A stretch of 64,000 nucleotides of DNA from an uncultured Piscirickettsiaceae bacterium. Lineage in GTDB: Bacteria; Pseudomonadota; Gammaproteobacteria; Methylococcales; Cycloclasticaceae. The translations under genes and the position numbers were made by a program. The notes beneath the pieces are model-generated. The model did no database searches. It saw only the letters and a program-made list of their open reading frames with translations, and had not been told where the DNA came from. Numbering within the stretch: position 1 is the first letter of the stretch; every line of letters begins with the position of its first letter. Location of the stretch: contig CAJXSK010000004.1 in NCBI GenBank assembly GCA_913061075.1, forward strand, positions 62,001 through 126,000, written 5' to 3'. Shown here one piece after another: positions 2,971 to 38,484 of the stretch.

Positions 2971-3396
2971 ATGGATGTACGAATTAAGTGGGTGGATGGT
3001 GCAATGTTCTTGGGCGAGTCAGGCAGTGGGCATGCGGTTGTTATGGACGGAGCACCAGAAAATGGCGGTCGTAATTTAGGGCTACGCCCAATGGAAATGT
3101 TGTTAACAGGCATGGGTGGTTGTACTGCTTTTGACGTAAAAATGATTCTAGATAAAGCACGTCAGAATGTAACGGATTGTGTGGCGGAGATTCATGCAGA
3201 CCGTGCAGATGCAGTACCTGCGGTGTTCACTAAAATTCACGTGCATTTTATTATTTCTGGCAAAAAACTTACGGATAAAGCAGTCGCACGAGCAGTGAAC
3301 TTATCAGCTGAAAAGTATTGCTCAGCATCTATCATGCTAAGCAAAGCTGTTGAAATAACGCATGATTATGAAATTATAGATGTTGATGCCGAATGA
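2971..3396 (+). CDS. OsmC/Ohr family protein
   Basis: OsmC-fold protein of 141 residues, typically a thiol-dependent peroxidase for organic hydroperoxides or a redox-stress protein. The start at 2971 is chosen because the reading frame before it runs back into the divergent crp gene and is not family-like, while the peptide from here (MDVRIKW) aligns with OsmC starts. The two family cysteines are at 51 (in GMGGCTAFD) and 117 (in EKYCSAS). It is transcribed divergently from the Crp-type gene (108 bases apart) and overlaps the next gene by four bases. Confidence 0.88.
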   Translation: MDVRIKWVDGAMFLGESGSGHAVVMDGAPENGGRNLGLRPMEMLLTGMGGCTAFDVKMILDKARQNVTDCVAEIHADRADAVPAVFTKIHVHFIISGKKLTDKAVARAVNLSAEKYCSASIMLSKAVEITHDYEIIDVDAE

Positions 3397-3785
3397 AGCG
3401 GCCTAACTCCACTACTGGATTGCGACACGTTGCGCTGAATGTGCGCGATTTAGCGGCGGCGGAACATTTTTATGTTGAGTTAATGGGTATGACGGTTGAG
3501 TGGCGGCCCGATGCAGATAATGTCTATCTAACATCAGGCAATGATAATTTAGCCTTGCACGTGGTGACTGGCGAAGAAACAGGTGTTCCTAAGCTGGATC
3601 ATATTGGTTTCTTTTTAGACACGGATGAAGATGTGGATGATTGGTTTGAGTTTTTATCACATCACGGCATTAAAATGAAAACGCAACCGCGTAAGCATCG
3701 AGATGGGGCGAAGAGTTTTTATTGTGTTGATCCAGAAGGGGTGACGGTGCAGATTATTTGTCATCCGCCGTTGGTTGGGAAGTAA
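3393..3785 (+). CDS. VOC (glyoxalase/bleomycin-resistance fold) family protein
   Basis: A 130-residue vicinal-oxygen-chelate protein made of two beta-alpha-beta-beta-beta modules. The first begins LRHVALNVRDL (10-20) and contains a candidate metal-binding His 12. The second begins LDHIGFF. The final strand reads VTVQII, where many metal-dependent members have Glu instead of Gln, so metal binding is uncertain. It shares an ATGA start/stop overlap with the OsmC gene, so the two are very likely co-translated. The substrate is unknown; dioxygenase-like or lyase roles are possible. Confidence 0.85.
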   Translation: MKRPNSTTGLRHVALNVRDLAAAEHFYVELMGMTVEWRPDADNVYLTSGNDNLALHVVTGEETGVPKLDHIGFFLDTDEDVDDWFEFLSHHGIKMKTQPRKHRDGAKSFYCVDPEGVTVQIICHPPLVGK

Positions 3786-3801
3786 TCGCTTAATTTTTTG
3801 G

Positions 3802-4509
3802 TTAGTTCGTTTTTGCATTTAACATAAATAAAAACATACCGGGCGCACTACCAGCTTGTATCATAACTTTTGGAAAAACCTGCATAAAAATAGCAGATGA
3901 TTCATAGAACTCAGCGGCCGCTGCCCAAACCTTTTTTTCATTTAAACTCTGAATTGTATTGAGCTGCAAAAGAGCATCAGAATCACGATGTGCAATTATT
4001 GAGTTTCGCTCAAAATGAAGTATTTTTGCAGCCTTCCCCTGAGATTTACGTAGTAACCTAAGAGCTAGAAATAACTCTTTTTGTAAAGCTTCATCAACTG
4101 AAGAACGGCAAAGTAGGTCTTTTAAATTTTTACTACTTGCCTTTCCCATATCCCATTCATATATTGTTAATAGAATAACCCTTAAAGATAATAGTCTTTT
4201 CCATTTATCGTGATGAGTTAACGCATCAATTTTGACCGTTTGAATATCTTTTTCTGCAATAAGATAGAACAAACCTATATTCATTAGTACTTGCGTACAC
4301 TCATTCCCCTTTTTTTTGGCTCTCTCTGCTCCAACTTTAAATGTTTGAATCGTGTCATTTAAAACACGATTTTTCTTCCGTTCTTTAATTGTCAGAGATA
4401 TTCGTGAATAAAAACGGCCAATTGCCATGAGTTTATTAGCATATCTTATTTGAAAATACCTTTTTCTTACTTCTAGCGGAACATCTGCGATGCTTTCATA
4501 TTTTGGCAT
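3802..4509 (-). CDS. Hypothetical protein, orphan, helical
   Basis: I do not recognise this 235-residue protein. It is rich in Lys, Leu and Ile, predicted by eye to be mostly helical, with no signal peptide and no clear membrane segment. A basic, charged stretch lies at about 43-68. The gene is isolated between a convergent VOC gene and a repeat-bearing region, and its AT-rich codon use differs from the housekeeping genes nearby. A purine-rich GGAGG lies upstream of the start. It may be a recently acquired accessory gene; no function is proposed. Confidence 0.6.
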   Translation of the reverse strand: MPKYESIADVPLEVRKRYFQIRYANKLMAIGRFYSRISLTIKERKKNRVLNDTIQTFKVGAERAKKKGNECTQVLMNIGLFYLIAEKDIQTVKIDALTHHDKWKRLLSLRVILLTIYEWDMGKASSKNLKDLLCRSSVDEALQKELFLALRLLRKSQGKAAKILHFERNSIIAHRDSDALLQLNTIQSLNEKKVWAAAAEFYESSAIFMQVFPKVMIQAGSAPGMFLFMLNAKTN

Positions 4510-4743
4510 TGATAAGTTTACCTTGGAGGTCTAACTGATTGTTCAGGAGGATAAAACCCTCTCTAACTTCTATATTTACATGGAGAAATAGTTCTCGTGT
4601 AATACGATACTCAAGAGTAAGCAGAGCAATATGTTTGGTTTTCAGGAGGTTAAGATAACATATAATATTATTGGCTTTTTGCTGCCGCAGGCGATGTTCA
4701 TTTTTTGCGTTGCCAAAAAACGAACCAAAAAAGGCAACCCTAA

Positions 4744-4862
4744 AACCTCACCTACGGTTCCCTCAAGCTCATTGATTTTATAGCCGTTGTGGAACTCGCC
4801 AAAAGCAGGCTCAAACAACCACAACGGAAAGCCCTATAAAAGCAACGAGTTTCGGTGAGGTT
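4744..4862. repeat. Large imperfect inverted repeat
   Basis: The arms AACCTCACC (4744-4752) and GGTGAGGTT (4854-4862) are exact inverses. Inside them TTTATAG (4777-4783) pairs with CTATAAA (4834-4840), and CCGTTGTGG (4784-4792) pairs with CCACAACGG (4819-4827). Bases between the arms also match partly, so the whole 119 bp can fold as one interrupted hairpin. A 60-codon frame on the minus strand (4642-4824) runs through it, but its codons follow the repeat and not a protein family, so I do not call it a gene. It resembles a mobile or dispersed intergenic repeat; copy number cannot be judged from one window. Confidence 0.7.
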
Positions 4863-4887
4863 GAAAGGGAATTAAAATCAAAGGCGT

Positions 4888-5049
4888 CTATTGGATAATT
4901 TCCGATACTACTTGCTTCATGGCAGACGTTACATGAGATAAGTCATCCGGCTCAATAATAGAAGGCGGCATGACATACACCAGCCTAGAGAAGGGGACGT
5001 ACCCAAGCGCTAAGTTCAAAAAAACCTGGGTTGCATACAGTGAATATCA
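4888..5049 (-). pseudogene. Decayed 3' fragment of a second bioA copy
   Basis: Read on the minus strand from about 5049, the codons give DIHCMQPRFF, then after a frame change ELSAWVRP, then after another change FSRLVYVMPP and a tail IIEPDDLSHVTSAMKQVV ending at TAG (4888-4890). This matches the last 50 or so residues of the intact BioA (residues 379-429: DIHWMQPRFV, VWIRPFSNLVYVMPP, IIEPNDLSSITSAM). Two frameshifts and the missing upstream part make it non-coding. It ends a few bases beyond the stop of the Kef-type gene, so that gene is flanked by a bioA 3' end on both sides. Confidence 0.88.
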
Positions 5050-5066
5050 ATAGGTTTTTGAGCGGT

Positions 5067-6671
5067 TTATTTGTTGATCGCGAACGTATGCAGTTCGTTG
5101 GCAAAACCTAGGCCAGCTTCTGTGTATATGTTGAATGTATGGTCAACGCCAATGGCTTTTAACGCATCTTCTTCATCGGGGTATTTTGTTGTTGCAGCGA
5201 TACTGCCTGTGTAACCCATTTCTTTTAGCCGTGTTGCTGCGTTCATGTTGGCTTGGTGGGTTGGCAAGGTAAGTAATACCCATTCTAAGCCATCTAATAA
5301 ATCGGGGGCGCGTCCCCAGATATCTGGGTTCGTAGCATCCCCACAAATAACGTTCATGCCCGCCTCTATGTCTTTTTTGGCTTTGTCTTCGTCTATTTCA
5401 AAGCCGACCAAATGTGTCTCGTAGTCTTGTCTCATTGCATTATAGGCAGCGACACCCATTCGCCCCATGCCAAGAACCACCGCTTTCACGTGTGCTAAAT
5501 CTAGGTTTTCTTCTCCTGATAAACGCTTTGAGCGTTCGAAGCGCTTTAGCCAAGGCCGGTATGAAAGGTATATTTTGTCGCGAACATTGACGAGTGGTGC
5601 GGAAAGAATAAACGAGAGGGACATAACAACGGCAAAAACAGATATCCATTCTTTAGGTAACCAGCCTGATGATATGGCTATTGCACCTACAATAAGGCCG
5701 AACTCACTGTAATTGGCTAAGTTGAGTGACGTGCGCCAAGATGTGCTGGCCCTAAGTTTGAATAGGCTGAATAAGCCAAAGTACATGGCTACTTTTAGTG
5801 GTAAAACTAAAATAAATAAAATGGCGATGAATACTTCGGCCCAGCCAGGCATAGCAGCCATACCTACACTAAGGAAGAACCCAATTAAAAATAGTTCTTT
5901 GAATCCCAATAATGCCTTTGCAAGTTCATTGGCCTTAGGGTGATTTGCAAGCAACATGCCGAAGACTAGGGCGCCTACATCGGCTTTCACGCCCACAGAT
6001 TCGAATAAAGCTGAACCAACTAGAGCAGTCATGATGCCAAATAGAATCAAAAGCTCGCCGTGGCCAACAATATTGAAAAGTTTATAAATGAGGTGGCGAA
6101 GTGGGATGAGTGCGAAAAGCCCTATAGCAAATGGGCTTGGAAGTTTGCCCATAGAAACAGCAATGAACACAACCGCTGCAATGTCTTGCATCACCAGTAC
6201 ACCAATAGAAATACGGCCATTCATTGAACTAGTTGCGCCCAGTTCATCTAGTACTTTTACTGCGAACACAGTGCTAGAGAATGATAACGCAAAGCCGATG
6301 ATAAGCGCAGTTTCAAAATCAAGCCCCGATAATAACGGTAAGCTAGTATAAGAAAATAGTAAAACAATACCGGCCATCAATAACGTAACGGCGGCCATAT
6401 GTAGCGTAGCAACGCCCCAAACTTCTGGTTTTGCTAAAGAACTTAGCTTGAGCTTGAGTCCGATAGAAAACAATAATAAGGTGATGCCCAAGTTAGCTAA
6501 TGCGTCCAGAAATTCGCCGCTTTGTGCGTCTAGGGCATTAAGTACAAAGCCTGCACCTAAAAAACCTATTAAAGGTGGTAGGCCAATTTTTTTTATTAAA
6601 AGTCCACAAACAAAGGCGATGGCTATCCAAAGTGGATCGCTATGTTGAATATTAAATAGTTGAGATTCCAT
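5067..6671 (-). CDS. CPA2-family monovalent cation:proton antiporter with RCK domain (Kef-type)
   Basis: Inner-membrane antiporter of 534 residues. The hydrophobic part (about 10-365) holds roughly a dozen membrane segments, including the CPA2 Gln-Asp pair (MQDIAAV, 161-167). A cytoplasmic RCK/TrkA-N domain follows, with the nucleotide loop GMGRMG (401-406) and an acidic strand end near 424-430. Kef proteins move K+ out in exchange for protons under control of bound nucleotides or glutathione adducts; here the cation is inferred. It ends after RCK_N without the longer tail of E. coli KefB/C. It lies between bioA and a bioA remnant. Confidence 0.92.
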   Translation of the reverse strand: MESQLFNIQHSDPLWIAIAFVCGLLIKKIGLPPLIGFLGAGFVLNALDAQSGEFLDALANLGITLLLFSIGLKLKLSSLAKPEVWGVATLHMAAVTLLMAGIVLLFSYTSLPLLSGLDFETALIIGFALSFSSTVFAVKVLDELGATSSMNGRISIGVLVMQDIAAVVFIAVSMGKLPSPFAIGLFALIPLRHLIYKLFNIVGHGELLILFGIMTALVGSALFESVGVKADVGALVFGMLLANHPKANELAKALLGFKELFLIGFFLSVGMAAMPGWAEVFIAILFILVLPLKVAMYFGLFSLFKLRASTSWRTSLNLANYSEFGLIVGAIAISSGWLPKEWISVFAVVMSLSFILSAPLVNVRDKIYLSYRPWLKRFERSKRLSGEENLDLAHVKAVVLGMGRMGVAAYNAMRQDYETHLVGFEIDEDKAKKDIEAGMNVICGDATNPDIWGRAPDLLDGLEWVLLTLPTHQANMNAATRLKEMGYTGSIAATTKYPDEEDALKAIGVDHTFNIYTEAGLGFANELHTFAINK

Positions 6672-6861
6672 GGTTTATCGTTGGGTAAGATGCTTTGTGG
6701 TTTGAATTTAAGTTTGTTTTCAATCACTTAAATTTAGCAGATTTTTAAAACTTTGCTGTTGGATAAGAAATGTGCCGATTGTCAGTAAGTATTATCTGAA
6801 AAGGCGTATCAATTGATCGTAGTGCTGTTTTGAAAAAAAGAGGGGTGTTGTGGTCTTTTAA

Positions 6862-6882
6862 AGCTCAGTATAAAAGTGAGCT
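6862..6882 (-). terminator. Possible weak terminator hairpin after bioA
   Basis: AGCTCA and TGAGCT form a 6-bp stem with a 9-base loop, overlapping the bioA stop codon. On the minus strand a short, mixed T/A tract follows. The stem is short and the T tract poor, so this is tentative. Confidence 0.3.
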
Positions 6883-8170
6883 AGTTAATCTCTGATACAA
6901 CCTGAGCCATCGCTGATGTGATAGAAGATAGGTCGTTTGGCTCAATAATATACGGAGGCATGACGTAAACAAGGTTAGAGAATGGGCGAATCCAAACGCC
7001 AAGATCTACAAAGCGAGGTTGCATCCAATGAATATCGTCCGCTTTGTGTAATTCAATCACACCAATCGCGCCTTTGACTCTGATGTCTTTTACAGCGCTG
7101 AGGTCACGACAGGCTTCCAGTTCGATTGATAATTGTTGCCCTATGGATAAAGCACGTTGTTGCCAAGGCGAATTAAGCAATAGTTTTAAGCTAGCATTCG
7201 CGACTGAGCAAGCTAGGGGGTTAGCCATAAAGGTTGGCCCGTGCATTAGCGTTGGGAATTCACCGGTGCCAATTCCATCAGCAACTTTGCTGGAACAAAG
7301 GGTCGCAGCCAAGCTTAAATAACCCCCCGTTAATGCCTTACCAACACATAAAATATCGGGTGCTATGCCGGCTTGTTCGTAAGCAAATAAGGTGCCTGTA
7401 CGCCCAAACCCAGTGGCGATTTCATCGAGTATTAGCAGTACGTTGTATTCATTACATAGCTCGCGCACTTTTTTTAGGTAAGAGGTGCTGTAAAAACGCA
7501 TGCCGCCAGCGCCTTGAACTAGGGGTTCAAGAATAACGGCGGCTATGGATGAGGTGTTGTTTTTTAGTAGCGATTTGAAGTCTCTAATGGCTTCTTCATC
7601 GTATTGTTCTTGATTGAAGCATTCTGGGCTTTTGGCGAATAGGTGTTGAGCGAGTACATCTTTAAATAAATGATGCATGCCATTGTCCGGGTCGCATACG
7701 GCCATCGCGCCAAAGGTGTCACCGTGGTAGCCATTTTTAATGGTGAGTAAGCGTTGTTTTTGTGGCTGTCCTTTTGATGCCCAATATTGAATGGCCATTT
7801 TAATAGCCACTTCTACAGCGACTGAGCCGGAGTCTGCAAAAAAAACGTGTTGTAAGTCATCGTGGGTGATATCGATTAACGTTTTGGCTAAATTAATCGC
7901 TGGCTTATGGGTTAACCCACCAAACATAACGTGAGACATGGATTTAAGCTGGTTCTCAATCGCAGCATTTAACACGGGGTGGTTGTAGCCGTGAATAGCG
8001 GCCCACCAAGATGACATGCCGTCGATTAGCTCTCGACCATCAGCCAGTTTAATGCGTACACCAGAGGCGGATTCAACGGGAAAGGTCGGGCTGGGGTGCT
8101 TTAAACTCGTGTAGGGGTGCCAGATGTGTTGCCTGTCAAAATTAGCAAGCGCTTGCCAGTCATCTTGCAT
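6881..8170 (-). CDS. bioA: Adenosylmethionine-8-amino-7-oxononanoate aminotransferase
   Basis: PLP enzyme that uses S-adenosylmethionine as amino donor to turn KAPA into DAPA in biotin synthesis. Length is 429 residues, as usual. Visible motifs are the N-terminal HIWHPYTS (15-22), GMSSWWAAIHGYNHP (51-65), YHGDT (148-152), LDEIATGFGRTG (248-259 with the PLP-contacting Asp 249), and the Schiff-base Lys 278 in CVGKALTGG. No other bio genes are in the window. A decayed second copy of its 3' end lies downstream at 4888-5049. It is followed closely by coq7 upstream on the same strand (6 bases apart), so the two may be cotranscribed. Confidence 0.97.
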   Translation of the reverse strand: MQDDWQALANFDRQHIWHPYTSLKHPSPTFPVESASGVRIKLADGRELIDGMSSWWAAIHGYNHPVLNAAIENQLKSMSHVMFGGLTHKPAINLAKTLIDITHDDLQHVFFADSGSVAVEVAIKMAIQYWASKGQPQKQRLLTIKNGYHGDTFGAMAVCDPDNGMHHLFKDVLAQHLFAKSPECFNQEQYDEEAIRDFKSLLKNNTSSIAAVILEPLVQGAGGMRFYSTSYLKKVRELCNEYNVLLILDEIATGFGRTGTLFAYEQAGIAPDILCVGKALTGGYLSLAATLCSSKVADGIGTGEFPTLMHGPTFMANPLACSVANASLKLLLNSPWQQRALSIGQQLSIELEACRDLSAVKDIRVKGAIGVIELHKADDIHWMQPRFVDLGVWIRPFSNLVYVMPPYIIEPNDLSSITSAMAQVVSEIN

Positions 8171-8176
8171 GATGCA

Positions 8177-8821
8177 TTAAACCCAGTGTGATGCTTTTGT
8201 CATGACGTTAGAAACCAGTTGCATGCCTTGTTTGATAGGCTCAGGCAGTTCTGCTGCACCGCTTTCAATAGCGGTTGTTGCGTGTTGATTTTCGTCGTCA
8301 CGCATTTGCTCGAGTATTGCGCGTGTTTTGTGGTCAGTTTTTGGTAATTGCTCAAGGTGGCTGTCGATATGTTTAACGACTTGCCTTTCTGTTTCGGCCA
8401 AAAATCCTAAATTCCACTTATCGCCCGCAAGACCGGCTATTGCGCCAATGGATAACGAGCCCGCATACCATAATGGGTCAAATATACTGGTTCTTTCACC
8501 CAATTCAGTCACGCGGCCCTTGCACCATGCAAGGTGATCATTCTCCTCTTCAGCGGCTTGCTTCAGCTTGTCTTGGATTGTTTTATCTTTTGCTGTGAGC
8601 GCTTGCCCCTGGTATAAGGCTTGCGCCGCCACTTCGCCAGCATGGTTTACACGCATTAATTGTGCAGATAGGTGTGCGTCAGTGTCGTCGAGTTCAATGT
8701 CTTCAGCAATGGTAGCAGCAGGGTTTGGGCGACCTGTCGTTTTAGCGTGCCCCGTTAAGGTGCGAATCACGCGGTCAGCGTGGCCAATCAATATGTCTGC
8801 GGGAGAAAAAATTCTTTGCAC
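8177..8821 (-). CDS. coq7: 3-demethoxyubiquinol 3-hydroxylase, Coq7 type
   Basis: Di-iron membrane-associated hydroxylase that adds a ring hydroxyl late in ubiquinone synthesis, the alternative to UbiF. Length 214. Candidate iron ligands are Glu 63 (NHAGEVA), Glu 93 and His 96 (EENDH), Glu 145 (ETERQ), Glu 177 and His 180 (DDENQH), the repeated ExxH pattern of the family. A hydrophobic turn GSLSIGAIAGLAG (121-133) suits interfacial membrane binding. Its presence means the two flavin hydroxylases at 36111-38484 need not include a UbiF. Confidence 0.96.
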   Translation of the reverse strand: MQRIFSPADILIGHADRVIRTLTGHAKTTGRPNPAATIAEDIELDDTDAHLSAQLMRVNHAGEVAAQALYQGQALTAKDKTIQDKLKQAAEEENDHLAWCKGRVTELGERTSIFDPLWYAGSLSIGAIAGLAGDKWNLGFLAETERQVVKHIDSHLEQLPKTDHKTRAILEQMRDDENQHATTAIESGAAELPEPIKQGMQLVSNVMTKASHWV

Positions 8822-34786: not shown

Positions 34787-36121
34787 ATGGGCCAACAAAA
34801 CATAAGCGCTACAGAATTCGCAAAGCGCCGTAAGCAATTTCTACGCTTGTTGGGTGCAGGCAATATTGCGGTGATCCCAGGTGCCTCTATTCAACATAGA
34901 AACAGAGATGTCGAGTATTTGTTTCGCCAAAACAGTGATTTTTATTACCTAACGGGTTTTGATGAAGCGGATGCAGTGGCCGTGTTTGTGCCCGGCCGTG
35001 AGCAGGGCGAATATATATTATTTTGCAATGAATACGATGAACAAACGGCGTTGTGGGTAGTTGCAAATGCAGGTATAGATAACGCGATGAGCGTATTTGG
35101 TGCGGACGATGCGTTCCCCATTGACGACATTGACGATATTTTGCCGGGCTTATTGGAAAATAATAATAAGCTGTACTTTCCAATGGGTATGAATCCAGCG
35201 TTCGATCAACAGTTAATGGACTGGTCACAACAGGTGCGGAGTAAATCAAGAGCAGGTGTAACAGGGCCCGCAGAGTTTATTTCAACGGACCATCTGTTGC
35301 ACGAAATGCGTTTAATAAAATCATCGCAAGAAATTAAGCAGATGAAAAAGGCGGCAAAAATTTCTGTGGTGGCTCATAAAAAGGCCATGCAGGTTTGTAA
35401 GCCAGCTATGTATGAGTATGAAGTTGATGCAACGTTAAAGCACCATTTTATTAGTAATGGGGCACAGCAAGAGGCTTATCCCGCTATTGTTGGCGGCGGT
35501 GTGAATGGATGTATTCTTCATTATGTACAAAATAATGCGCAACTTAATGATGGCGAATTGTTATTGATTGATGCAGGGTGCGAATGGGAAAAATACGCCT
35601 CTGATATAACACGAACATTTCCCATAAACGGGGTGTTTAGCGAGGAACAAAAGGCGTTATACCAATTGGTATTGGATTCGCAATATGCTGCGATTGAGCA
35701 GGTAAAACCAGGTAATCATTGGAATGACCCTCATGAAGCGGCTGTTAAGGTGTTAACAAAGGGGTTGGTTAAGTTAGGAATTCTTAACGGACGTGTGCCA
35801 ACGTTGATTAAAAATGAAGCGTATAAACCGTACTATATGCACCGAACAGGGCACTGGTTAGGCATGGATGTTCATGACGTCGGTGATTATAAAATAGACA
35901 AACAGTGGCGCTTGTTGGAGCCGGGCATGGTGCTTACTGTAGAGCCAGGTCTGTATATTCAGCCGAATGCAAAAGAAGTTGATAAGAAATGGCGCGGAAT
36001 TGGTATTCGTATTGAAGATGATGTATTGGTAACGAAAAAAGGCCATGAGGTTTTAACTGACGGCGCACCGAAAGAAGTCAACGATATTGAATCGTTGATG
36101 GAGAAAGCGCGTGTCGGATGA
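34787..36121 (+). CDS. pepP: Xaa-Pro aminopeptidase P
   Basis: Pita-bread metalloprotease that removes an N-terminal residue before proline. The 444-residue protein has the family N-terminal domain (about 1-170) and a catalytic domain with the five metal ligands Asp 262, Asp 273, His 356, Glu 386 and Glu 410, in LIDAGCEWEKYASDITR, MHRTGHWLG, TVEPG and RIEDD. It overlaps ubiH by 11 bases. Confidence 0.96.
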   Translation: MGQQNISATEFAKRRKQFLRLLGAGNIAVIPGASIQHRNRDVEYLFRQNSDFYYLTGFDEADAVAVFVPGREQGEYILFCNEYDEQTALWVVANAGIDNAMSVFGADDAFPIDDIDDILPGLLENNNKLYFPMGMNPAFDQQLMDWSQQVRSKSRAGVTGPAEFISTDHLLHEMRLIKSSQEIKQMKKAAKISVVAHKKAMQVCKPAMYEYEVDATLKHHFISNGAQQEAYPAIVGGGVNGCILHYVQNNAQLNDGELLLIDAGCEWEKYASDITRTFPINGVFSEEQKALYQLVLDSQYAAIEQVKPGNHWNDPHEAAVKVLTKGLVKLGILNGRVPTLIKNEAYKPYYMHRTGHWLGMDVHDVGDYKIDKQWRLLEPGMVLTVEPGLYIQPNAKEVDKKWRGIGIRIEDDVLVTKKGHEVLTDGAPKEVNDIESLMEKARVG

Positions 36122-37307
36122 CTATGATGTCATCATTATTGGTGGTGGCATGGTGGGTGGCTGCTTAGGTTTAGCATTAAGCCAATCATCGCTTCGCGTT
36201 GCTATTGTAGAGGCGCGAGAGTTTTCAGAAAAACAATCGGACAGTGCGGGTAAGCGAGCCATCGCGCTGTCTTGGGGAAGCCGCTGTGTTCTTGAACAAT
36301 TAGGTATTTGGCAGCCCATAAATGATGCAGCGATGGCGATTAAGCACATTCATGTGTCAGACAAAGGCCATTTCGGCAAAACGCGGTTATCAGCCGAGTC
36401 GCAACATGTTGATGCGCTAGGTTACGTGGTAGAAGCAGCAAAAATTGAAGCAGTCGTGGCAGATAGTTTAAAACAATCAAATATAGATAGTGTCTGTCCA
36501 GCAAGTTTAGTTGATTACGTAGTACATGATGACGGTGCAGACGTAACGATTAGTTTAAATGGCAAAGAGAAAACGTTGTCGTGCAGGTTATTAGTCGGTG
36601 CGGATGGCGGCTTATCTAAAGTACGCGAAGGCGGTGATTTTGATCTAAAAGAATATTCATATGAGCAGCACGCTATAGCTGGCTTAATTAAAGTTGAGTC
36701 GGATGTGCATGATATAGCCTACGAGCGTTTTACATCAGAAGGCCCAATAGCAATGTTGCCACATTTCGATGGATTATATTCCTTGGTGTGGACGATGCCA
36801 TCAGAACTGGCGCTAGAGACAATGCAGTTGCCGGAAGATGAATTTTTAGATCGATTACAATCACGCTTTGGCCAATGGTTAGGGGAGCTAAGTTTGTCGG
36901 GTAAGTGCCAAAACTTCCCATTAAATTTATCACATGTTCCAAACAATACGGCAGAACGCGTTGTGCTGATTGGTAACGCCGCGCACCAGCTTCATCCTGT
37001 AGCGGGGCAAGGGTTTAACTTGGGTTTGCGAGACGCAGCGATTTTAGCGGATGTATTAATGACGGGCGAGAGTGATATTCGCAATGTGCTTGAAGTCTAT
37101 GCAAAACACCGACAGTTAGACCAAACCCTAATAACAGGTTTTACCGATAATGTGATTAAGCTGTTCTCCACAAATAACGTGTTATTTAGTGTGGTGCGTA
37201 ATAGTGGTTTACTCATGCTGGATAAAATACCTATGTTTAAAAATCAATTTGCTCGTCAAACGATGGGTTTGGGTTCTCGCTTAGCTAGGTTGAAGAACGT
37301 TGGCTAA
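36111..37307 (+). CDS. ubiH: Ubiquinone-biosynthesis flavin hydroxylase, UbiH type
   Basis: Class A FAD monooxygenase of 398 residues that hydroxylates the polyprenylphenol ring. It has the FAD dinucleotide loop IIGGGMVGG (9-17), and a second FAD motif reading LIGNAAHQLHPVAGQGFNLGLRD. The Asn in GNAAH, instead of Asp, is also the E. coli UbiH form, so it is not a defect. GTG start at 36111. Order pepP-ubiH-ubiI is conserved with E. coli pepP-ubiH-visC. Confidence 0.93.
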   Translation: MSDDYDVIIIGGGMVGGCLGLALSQSSLRVAIVEAREFSEKQSDSAGKRAIALSWGSRCVLEQLGIWQPINDAAMAIKHIHVSDKGHFGKTRLSAESQHVDALGYVVEAAKIEAVVADSLKQSNIDSVCPASLVDYVVHDDGADVTISLNGKEKTLSCRLLVGADGGLSKVREGGDFDLKEYSYEQHAIAGLIKVESDVHDIAYERFTSEGPIAMLPHFDGLYSLVWTMPSELALETMQLPEDEFLDRLQSRFGQWLGELSLSGKCQNFPLNLSHVPNNTAERVVLIGNAAHQLHPVAGQGFNLGLRDAAILADVLMTGESDIRNVLEVYAKHRQLDQTLITGFTDNVIKLFSTNNVLFSVVRNSGLLMLDKIPMFKNQFARQTMGLGSRLARLKNVG

Positions 37308-38484
37308 AGATAAAGACTATCAAGTAGCAATAGTGGGCGGCGGCATGGTCGGTGCTAGTCTTGCGTGTTTGTTGGCGGGAAAAAACGTGTCCGTTGCGTT
37401 AATAGAGGCGGGCGACCCAGCGGCAAGTTGGCCAGAAAATACGTATGACTTACGTGTGTCAGCACTAACTTTGGCGTCCATTAACCTATTTAAAAGCCTC
37501 GACGTGTGGGCAGGTGTTGTTGAGCAAGGTGAGCAAGCGGTAGAAAAAATGTTTGTTTGGGATCACTTTGGTAGCGGTGAGTTGGATATAGATTCAGCCG
37601 ATGCAGGTGAAGTGCAAATGGGTTCGGTGGTTGAGAATCGTATTTCTGTTTTGGCGATTTGGAAAAAACTTCAGCAATTAGATAGTTGTGATGTGTTCAC
37701 TTCATCGCAATTAGACGATTTTACTGTGGATGACGACGGTTTAGATATTAACTTATCAAATGGCAAAAAAATTAGAGCCGCTTTGCTAGTGGGTGCAGAT
37801 GGTTCAAATTCAAAGATAAGGCAAATTAGCGGTATTGATGATTACGGTTGGGAATACCAACAAAAAGCCTTAGTTGCGACGGTTAAGCCAGAAAAGTCAC
37901 ACCAAAATACCGCATGGCAACGTTTTTTGCCGGAAGGGCCGCTTGCCTTGCTGCCTTTGCGTGATGGATTAATCTCCATTGTTTGGACATCAAGCACACA
38001 AACCACAGTAGATAATTTGAAATTGAGCGATGCTGGTTTCTGCGACGCTTTGGCAGAAGCATCTGAGCATCAATTAGGTGATTTTGAACTGGTCGGCGCA
38101 CGCGGTGCATTCCCGTTAAAGCTGCAGTTTTCACCAGAATACACTCAGCAACGTATGGTGTTAATTGGAGACGCCATTCACACCATTCACCCGCTAGCAG
38201 GGCAAGGCGCAAACCTTGGGTTAAAAGATGCAGTGACCTTAGCAGATGTGATTATTCAAGCACATAAAAAAGGCCGAGACATTGCTAGCGAACAAGTACT
38301 TCGTCGTTATGAGCGCCAACGCAAAGGAGACAACTTGTTAATGATGGGGATAATGGATGGTTTTAAACGCTTATTCGGTGCGGATGATATGTTGGTTCAA
38401 TTCGCTAGAAGTTGGGGTATGGGCGTGGTTAATAGTTCGACAATTATTAAGAATCAGATATGCAAGTACGCGATGGGTTCGTAA
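37300..38484 (+). CDS. Ubiquinone-biosynthesis flavin hydroxylase, UbiI/UbiF/UbiL group
   Basis: A 394-residue paralogue of the previous gene. It has GGGMVGASLACLLAG at the N terminus, VGADGSNSKIR in the middle, and GDAIHTIHPLAGQGANLGLKD. By gene order it corresponds to E. coli visC (ubiI), the C5 hydroxylase. Because coq7 supplies the C6 step, UbiF is not required. TTG at 37300 is the likely start, overlapping ubiH by 8 bases. Regiospecificity cannot be fixed from sequence. Confidence 0.9.
   Translation: MAKDKDYQVAIVGGGMVGASLACLLAGKNVSVALIEAGDPAASWPENTYDLRVSALTLASINLFKSLDVWAGVVEQGEQAVEKMFVWDHFGSGELDIDSADAGEVQMGSVVENRISVLAIWKKLQQLDSCDVFTSSQLDDFTVDDDGLDINLSNGKKIRAALLVGADGSNSKIRQISGIDDYGWEYQQKALVATVKPEKSHQNTAWQRFLPEGPLALLPLRDGLISIVWTSSTQTTVDNLKLSDAGFCDALAEASEHQLGDFELVGARGAFPLKLQFSPEYTQQRMVLIGDAIHTIHPLAGQGANLGLKDAVTLADVIIQAHKKGRDIASEQVLRRYERQRKGDNLLMMGIMDGFKRLFGADDMLVQFARSWGMGVVNSSTIIKNQICKYAMGS

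Follow-up and report, generated by a model that had tools for sequence, protein, structure and literature searches.

A broken copy of the 3' end of bioA lies behind the antiporter gene kef, and we consider it probable that this relic is the displaced, non-functional end of the resident bioA, with kef and a tail of the genus's own type having come in by recombination within the gene. The window, the 64-kb stretch of DNA analysed here, belongs to a genome (G000) of 2.26 Mb in 20 contigs, which was compared with those of 17 genus mates. Read along the minus strand, coq7 comes first, then bioA, kef, the bioA relic, a palindromic repeat and an ORF of 235 amino acids, followed by a convergent glyoxalase gene. 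The relic has the same orientation as bioA and sits on the far side of kef.

Intact bioA (6881–8170, minus strand) encodes 429 amino acids, with PF00202 extending over residues 27–424, and the product is approximately 74–84% identical to those of genus mates. The intergenic region between bioA and kef (6672–6880, minus strand) has no match in the inserts of the mates. The kef gene (5067–6671, minus strand) is likewise intact, with 534 codons for a CPA2-type antiporter, and both domains of CPA2/Kef antiporters are recognized in its product by Pfam, Na_H_Exchanger (PF00999, E 2.7e-38) and TrkA_N (PF02254, E 1.3e-16).

The relic (4888–5060, minus strand) comprises the last 55 or so codons of bioA, interrupted by two +1 frameshifts, and runs into what was the downstream flank of the old gene. 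Since the start region is absent it cannot be a working bioA. The minus strand of 4888–5069 matches that of 6886–7036 at 112 of 153 positions (73%, E 5e-19, blastn within the window). The local score of relic against intact tail is 98, compared with a maximum of 34 among 500 dinucleotide shuffles. An independent repeat search of the window pairs 4896–4996 with 6886–6986, again at 73%, and a genus-wide BioA search recovers the relic with an E of 1.7e-10. Direct reading places the first frameshift in a T run (5018–5024, minus strand) and the second in a C run (4993–4996, minus strand), so that both fall in homopolymers. The translation with the extra bases marked, QKPIDIHCMQPRFF(+T)ELSAWVRP(+C)FSRLVYVMPPSIIEPDDLSHVTSAMKQVVSEIIQ*, reads around these frameshifts as a BioA C-terminus.

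A frameshifted minus-strand copy of the last bioA codons, and an antiporter gene with a bioA end on both sides, had been described in the first-pass annotation, and both descriptions hold. The kef gene ends at 5067 and homology to bioA starts six bases on, the right junction (5061–5066, minus strand) being what separates the kef stop codon from the relic. The annotated location of the relic, 4888–5049, was right but its extent slightly short, as the homology reaches approximately 5060. When the 48 ORFs of at least 150 amino acids in the 64-kb window were scanned, bioA was the only gene with a partial copy of its end. The other non-self matches were one paralogous pair and GGDEF proteins. Paralogous neighbouring genes occupy 36111–38484 of the window and share 34% amino-acid identity.

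What did the site look like before kef? The same annotation had pointed to a kef-less arrangement in relatives, with bioA ending at this site, as the informative comparison, and such an arrangement is present in G007 (locus L079). The G007 contig starts inside bioA, which is followed by the palindromic repeat and then by glyoxalase, osmC, crp and trpC; kef is absent. The end of bioA together with the repeat in G007 aligns over 348 bp (84%) with the relic plus its flank, and the match resumes beyond this for another 118 bp at 77%. The distance from stop to repeat is 5 bp in both, G007 having TAATAG plus five bases and the relic CAATAG plus five bases. A relative without the cargo therefore has a gene that ends at the site of the relic with the same flank, and the identical spacing indicates that the relic occupies, and so marks, the old bioA end, with kef and a second tail placed in between.

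The two tails differ at 11, 7 and 28 of 55 first, second and third codon positions, respectively, which is similar to values between species of the genus. Neutral decay in place with 28 of 55 third-position differences predicts about 18 second-position differences as opposed to the 7 observed (P approximately 7e-4), and first and second positions together give P 1e-4, the expectation and both P values being simple Jukes–Cantor estimates. The concentration of differences at third positions suggests that selection acted on both tails while they diverged, each in a different lineage. All 23 genus-invariant residues are retained in the intact tail. The relic departs at approximately five residues that do not vary among 15 other genomes, although the outermost of these changes (H to Q) may belong to the flank. 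A sixth change at an invariant residue (R to G) proved to be an artefact of gap placement in the alignment. The simplest account of the sequences would be that each tail evolved as part of a working gene, in two separate lineages, and that they were later joined, the displaced one decaying since.

Turning to the origin of the cargo, kef occurs in one of the 18 genus genomes. No close relative was found in the 17 mates, where there are distant antiporters (best E 2e-20), or across 311 genomes of the order (best 46%). In a pattern-based search of 84,980 genomes the closest genes, 76% and 72%, came from two gammaproteobacterial MAGs, where they have unrelated neighbourhoods and are not beside bioA. 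The best bioA-like tails in those MAGs share 46% and 37% identity with the intact tail, the range for genus mates being 68–84%. By these comparisons kef is foreign to the lineage, and both bioA tails, the replacement included, are of the genus's own type. A replacement tail of genus type means that kef must have met a genus bioA either prior to the exchange or in the course of it. A donor with kef beside bioA was found neither in the pattern-based search of 84,980 genomes nor in the 311 genomes of the order nor in viral contigs.

The sequence of events that we favour is as follows. A segment with kef behind a bioA 3' end, derived from another lineage of the genus, would have entered by recombination within bioA. 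Uptake of the incoming tail would leave the bioA reading frame intact and add kef behind it, whilst the resident tail would be pushed to the far side of kef and then decay. The joining would have relied on homology at the bioA end of the segment, with an illegitimate junction at the opposite end, perhaps by homology-facilitated illegitimate recombination or by a single crossover of a circularised fragment. Position and flank make the relic the likelier resident end, and we infer that the intact tail is the newcomer. The replacement would then cover the 3' part of bioA, with 6881–7049 as its minimum extent. Between the two tails we saw neither a recombinase nor an insertion sequence nor an attC-like site, and the locus is best read as an acquisition without a visible integrase, anchored in bioA. 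Several points speak against this explanation. The donor searches described above came up empty, RecA-type crossovers between tails just 73% or so identical are rare, no recombination breakpoint was detected within bioA, and trees of its two halves resolve nothing. In addition G011, the weakly supported sister, lacks the repeat, so that the sharing of the repeat with G007 calls for loss in G011 or for a different branching. Of the two histories offered in the first-pass annotation, insertion of a kef segment with a new bioA 3' end is supported by G007, and tandem duplication is at odds with the kef-less flank and the third-position pattern. Its further suggestion, that the fragment came from elsewhere, is probably backwards given the position and flank of the relic. 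The third-position pattern supports an origin of the tails in different lineages, and the tree of the tails places neither of them.

The opposite polarity also has to be considered. Here bioA and kef would be resident, and the relic tail, the repeat and the 235-aa ORF would have come from a relative without kef, with the anchor on the side of the glyoxalase gene. The number of events is equal, one gain of kef behind bioA and then one exchange between kef-bearing and kef-less chromosomes, and the 235-aa ORF is low in G+C and, within the interval, private to this genome. The presence of kef in just one of the 18 genus genomes weighs against it. Backbone trees from genes on the left and on the right both return the same weak sister, G011, and so favour neither side as the incoming one. 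We regard this reversed history as unlikely, though it is the strongest of the competitors. Still less probable is duplication of the bioA tail in tandem and in place, whether or not kef was included, with subsequent loss and decay. A tree of the tails that includes the relic (166 columns) places neither of them, and on these data alone the two tails as sisters are not rejected (p-AU 0.43), nor is a grouping of the relic with G007. Relic and new tail differ mostly by synonymous changes, and this speaks for exchange between lineages rather than duplication; the shortfall at second positions, alone or with first positions, is hard to reconcile with decay in place. In addition, the relic is followed by a kef-less flank, and a duplicated kef would need to have disappeared exactly.

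A remnant of an integrative element, which used the bioA 3' end as its attachment site, brought its own replacement tail and has since lost its integrase, would produce the same geometry. Indeed prophage e14 of E. coli leaves an icd tail of near-equal length, 165 bp, on its far side (PMC11148124, PMC6379469). However, kef is the sole gene between the tails, with no recombinase gene there, and none is apparent among the ORFs of the genus mates' inserts. Phages, plasmids and viral contigs were searched, and all bioA tails in them were below 60% and none of genus type. The tails here are 73% identical, with the identity spread out rather than gathered in a long identical att core. We judge such a remnant improbable, marginally more so than duplication in place. 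Equally doubtful is a broader version, in which the bioA 3' end would be a recurrent entry point for an unseen element of the genus that carries replacement tails, kef being cargo left over after loss of the recombination genes. An assembly chimera, two strains joined at bioA, might be suspected since the genome is a draft of 20 contigs and each frameshift falls in a homopolymer. The junctions are inside a 237-kb contig, however, and besides its frameshifts the relic lacks residues that 15 other genomes keep without exception, unlike the functional bioA of any strain, which makes an artefact of this kind very improbable indeed.

The displaced-tail reading places the entry of kef in a gap that has taken up different cargo in different members of the genus. 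Genomes with bioA and the glyoxalase gene on one stretch have trpC-crp-osmC-glo and bioA-coq7-cysD arranged around a variable interval, and the distance from bioA to the glyoxalase gene ranges from 10 bp to 5.7 kb. In the window the conserved boundaries are the glyoxalase-family gene on the far side (3393–3785, plus strand) and the coq7-like gene upstream of bioA (8177–8821, minus strand). Insert contents in the mates were assigned by running representative proteins alone against Pfam. The gap is empty in G014 and G011, with 22 bp separating bioA from the glyoxalase gene in the latter. In G005, G013 and G009 a trypsin-like protease gene occupies it, and in G012, whose contig stops there, the same gene comes after bioA. 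G006 has an SBF transporter and G004 an SASA-type esterase gene. RND pump genes are present in both G001 and G017, the gap of G008 contains a mix with HigB-like and acetyltransferase genes, and that of G000 contains kef with a private ORF. G007 carries a BrnT/BrnA toxin-antitoxin pair and then a 71-base attC-like site ending GTTAGAC (L079, 671–1286), which together look like an integron cassette. Two genes are split in two frames, by decay or draft-assembly error: an RND pump gene in the G001 insert (L072) and a crp-like gene in G005 (L068, 5695–6373). The interval is a variable site of the ordinary kind, and among the genus genomes a bioA relic is found there in that of the window only.

The repeat that abuts the relic (4640–4885) is a palindromic interspersed element with a DNA fold z-score of -3.4, about three further copies in the genome and many in the genus; further copies include L080 9694–9978 and L081 6961–7168. 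Two other copies of the main repeat are accompanied by a second palindromic repeat (GTTATTAACAGGAAT...ATTCCTGTTAATA), which is located at L080 9630–9720 and L081 6738–6838. An Rfam search of 3700–7200 gave no match, the palindromic repeat included. The 235-aa ORF (3802–4509, minus strand) has a G+C content of 33–35%, belongs to no Pfam family and has no match in the inserts of genus mates; it is possibly a second foreign gene at the site. We also considered kef as an integron cassette and set this aside: with the pattern used, no attC-like site was matched behind kef in the interval, whereas the G007 insert has one. G000 has three integron-integrase genes above the NCBIfam cut-off, one with an internal stop, all outside the window (C1:92229–93176, C1:365692–366639 and C6:88399–89343), and at least one such gene occurs in 13 of the 18 genus genomes.

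The relic thus lets one read how a small gammaproteobacterial genome came to hold a gene that is foreign to its genus, with no mobile element in evidence. The value of the locus is that of a well-documented example; the mechanism is not new. At E. coli icd, prophage e14 leaves the 165-bp relic icdC, and as here the incomer supplies a gene tail and an old tail of about 54 codons remains on the far side (PMC11148124, PMC6379469). The differences are that e14 integration is site-specific, uses an integrase and has tails that differ at 12 of 165 bases, whereas an integrase is absent here and identity is 73%. Integration hotspots, variable intergenic insertion sites, share with the bioA–glyoxalase gap the conserved flanks and genome-specific contents, but the gap carries a gene-end relic in the window's genome only. 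In experiments with E. coli lacZ, single crossovers of circularised fragments left partial gene duplications of 109–950 bp (PMC3240628); there too one homologous anchor admits non-homologous DNA and a gene end is duplicated. Homology-facilitated illegitimate recombination typically yields deletions with 3–10 bp of microhomology, whereas the bioA–kef case is read from its product. In V. cholerae T6SS effector arrays, displaced 3' parts have been proposed to arise by such recombination, the incoming module taking the place of a whole gene or of its end, with the old 3' portion moved downstream, as at bioA (PMC5361080). Those modules encode effector and immunity proteins, whereas here the gene is biosynthetic and the cargo an ion antiporter. 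The bioA relic beside kef is clearly the product of a known kind of event, a fossil of gene transfer rather than a new system.
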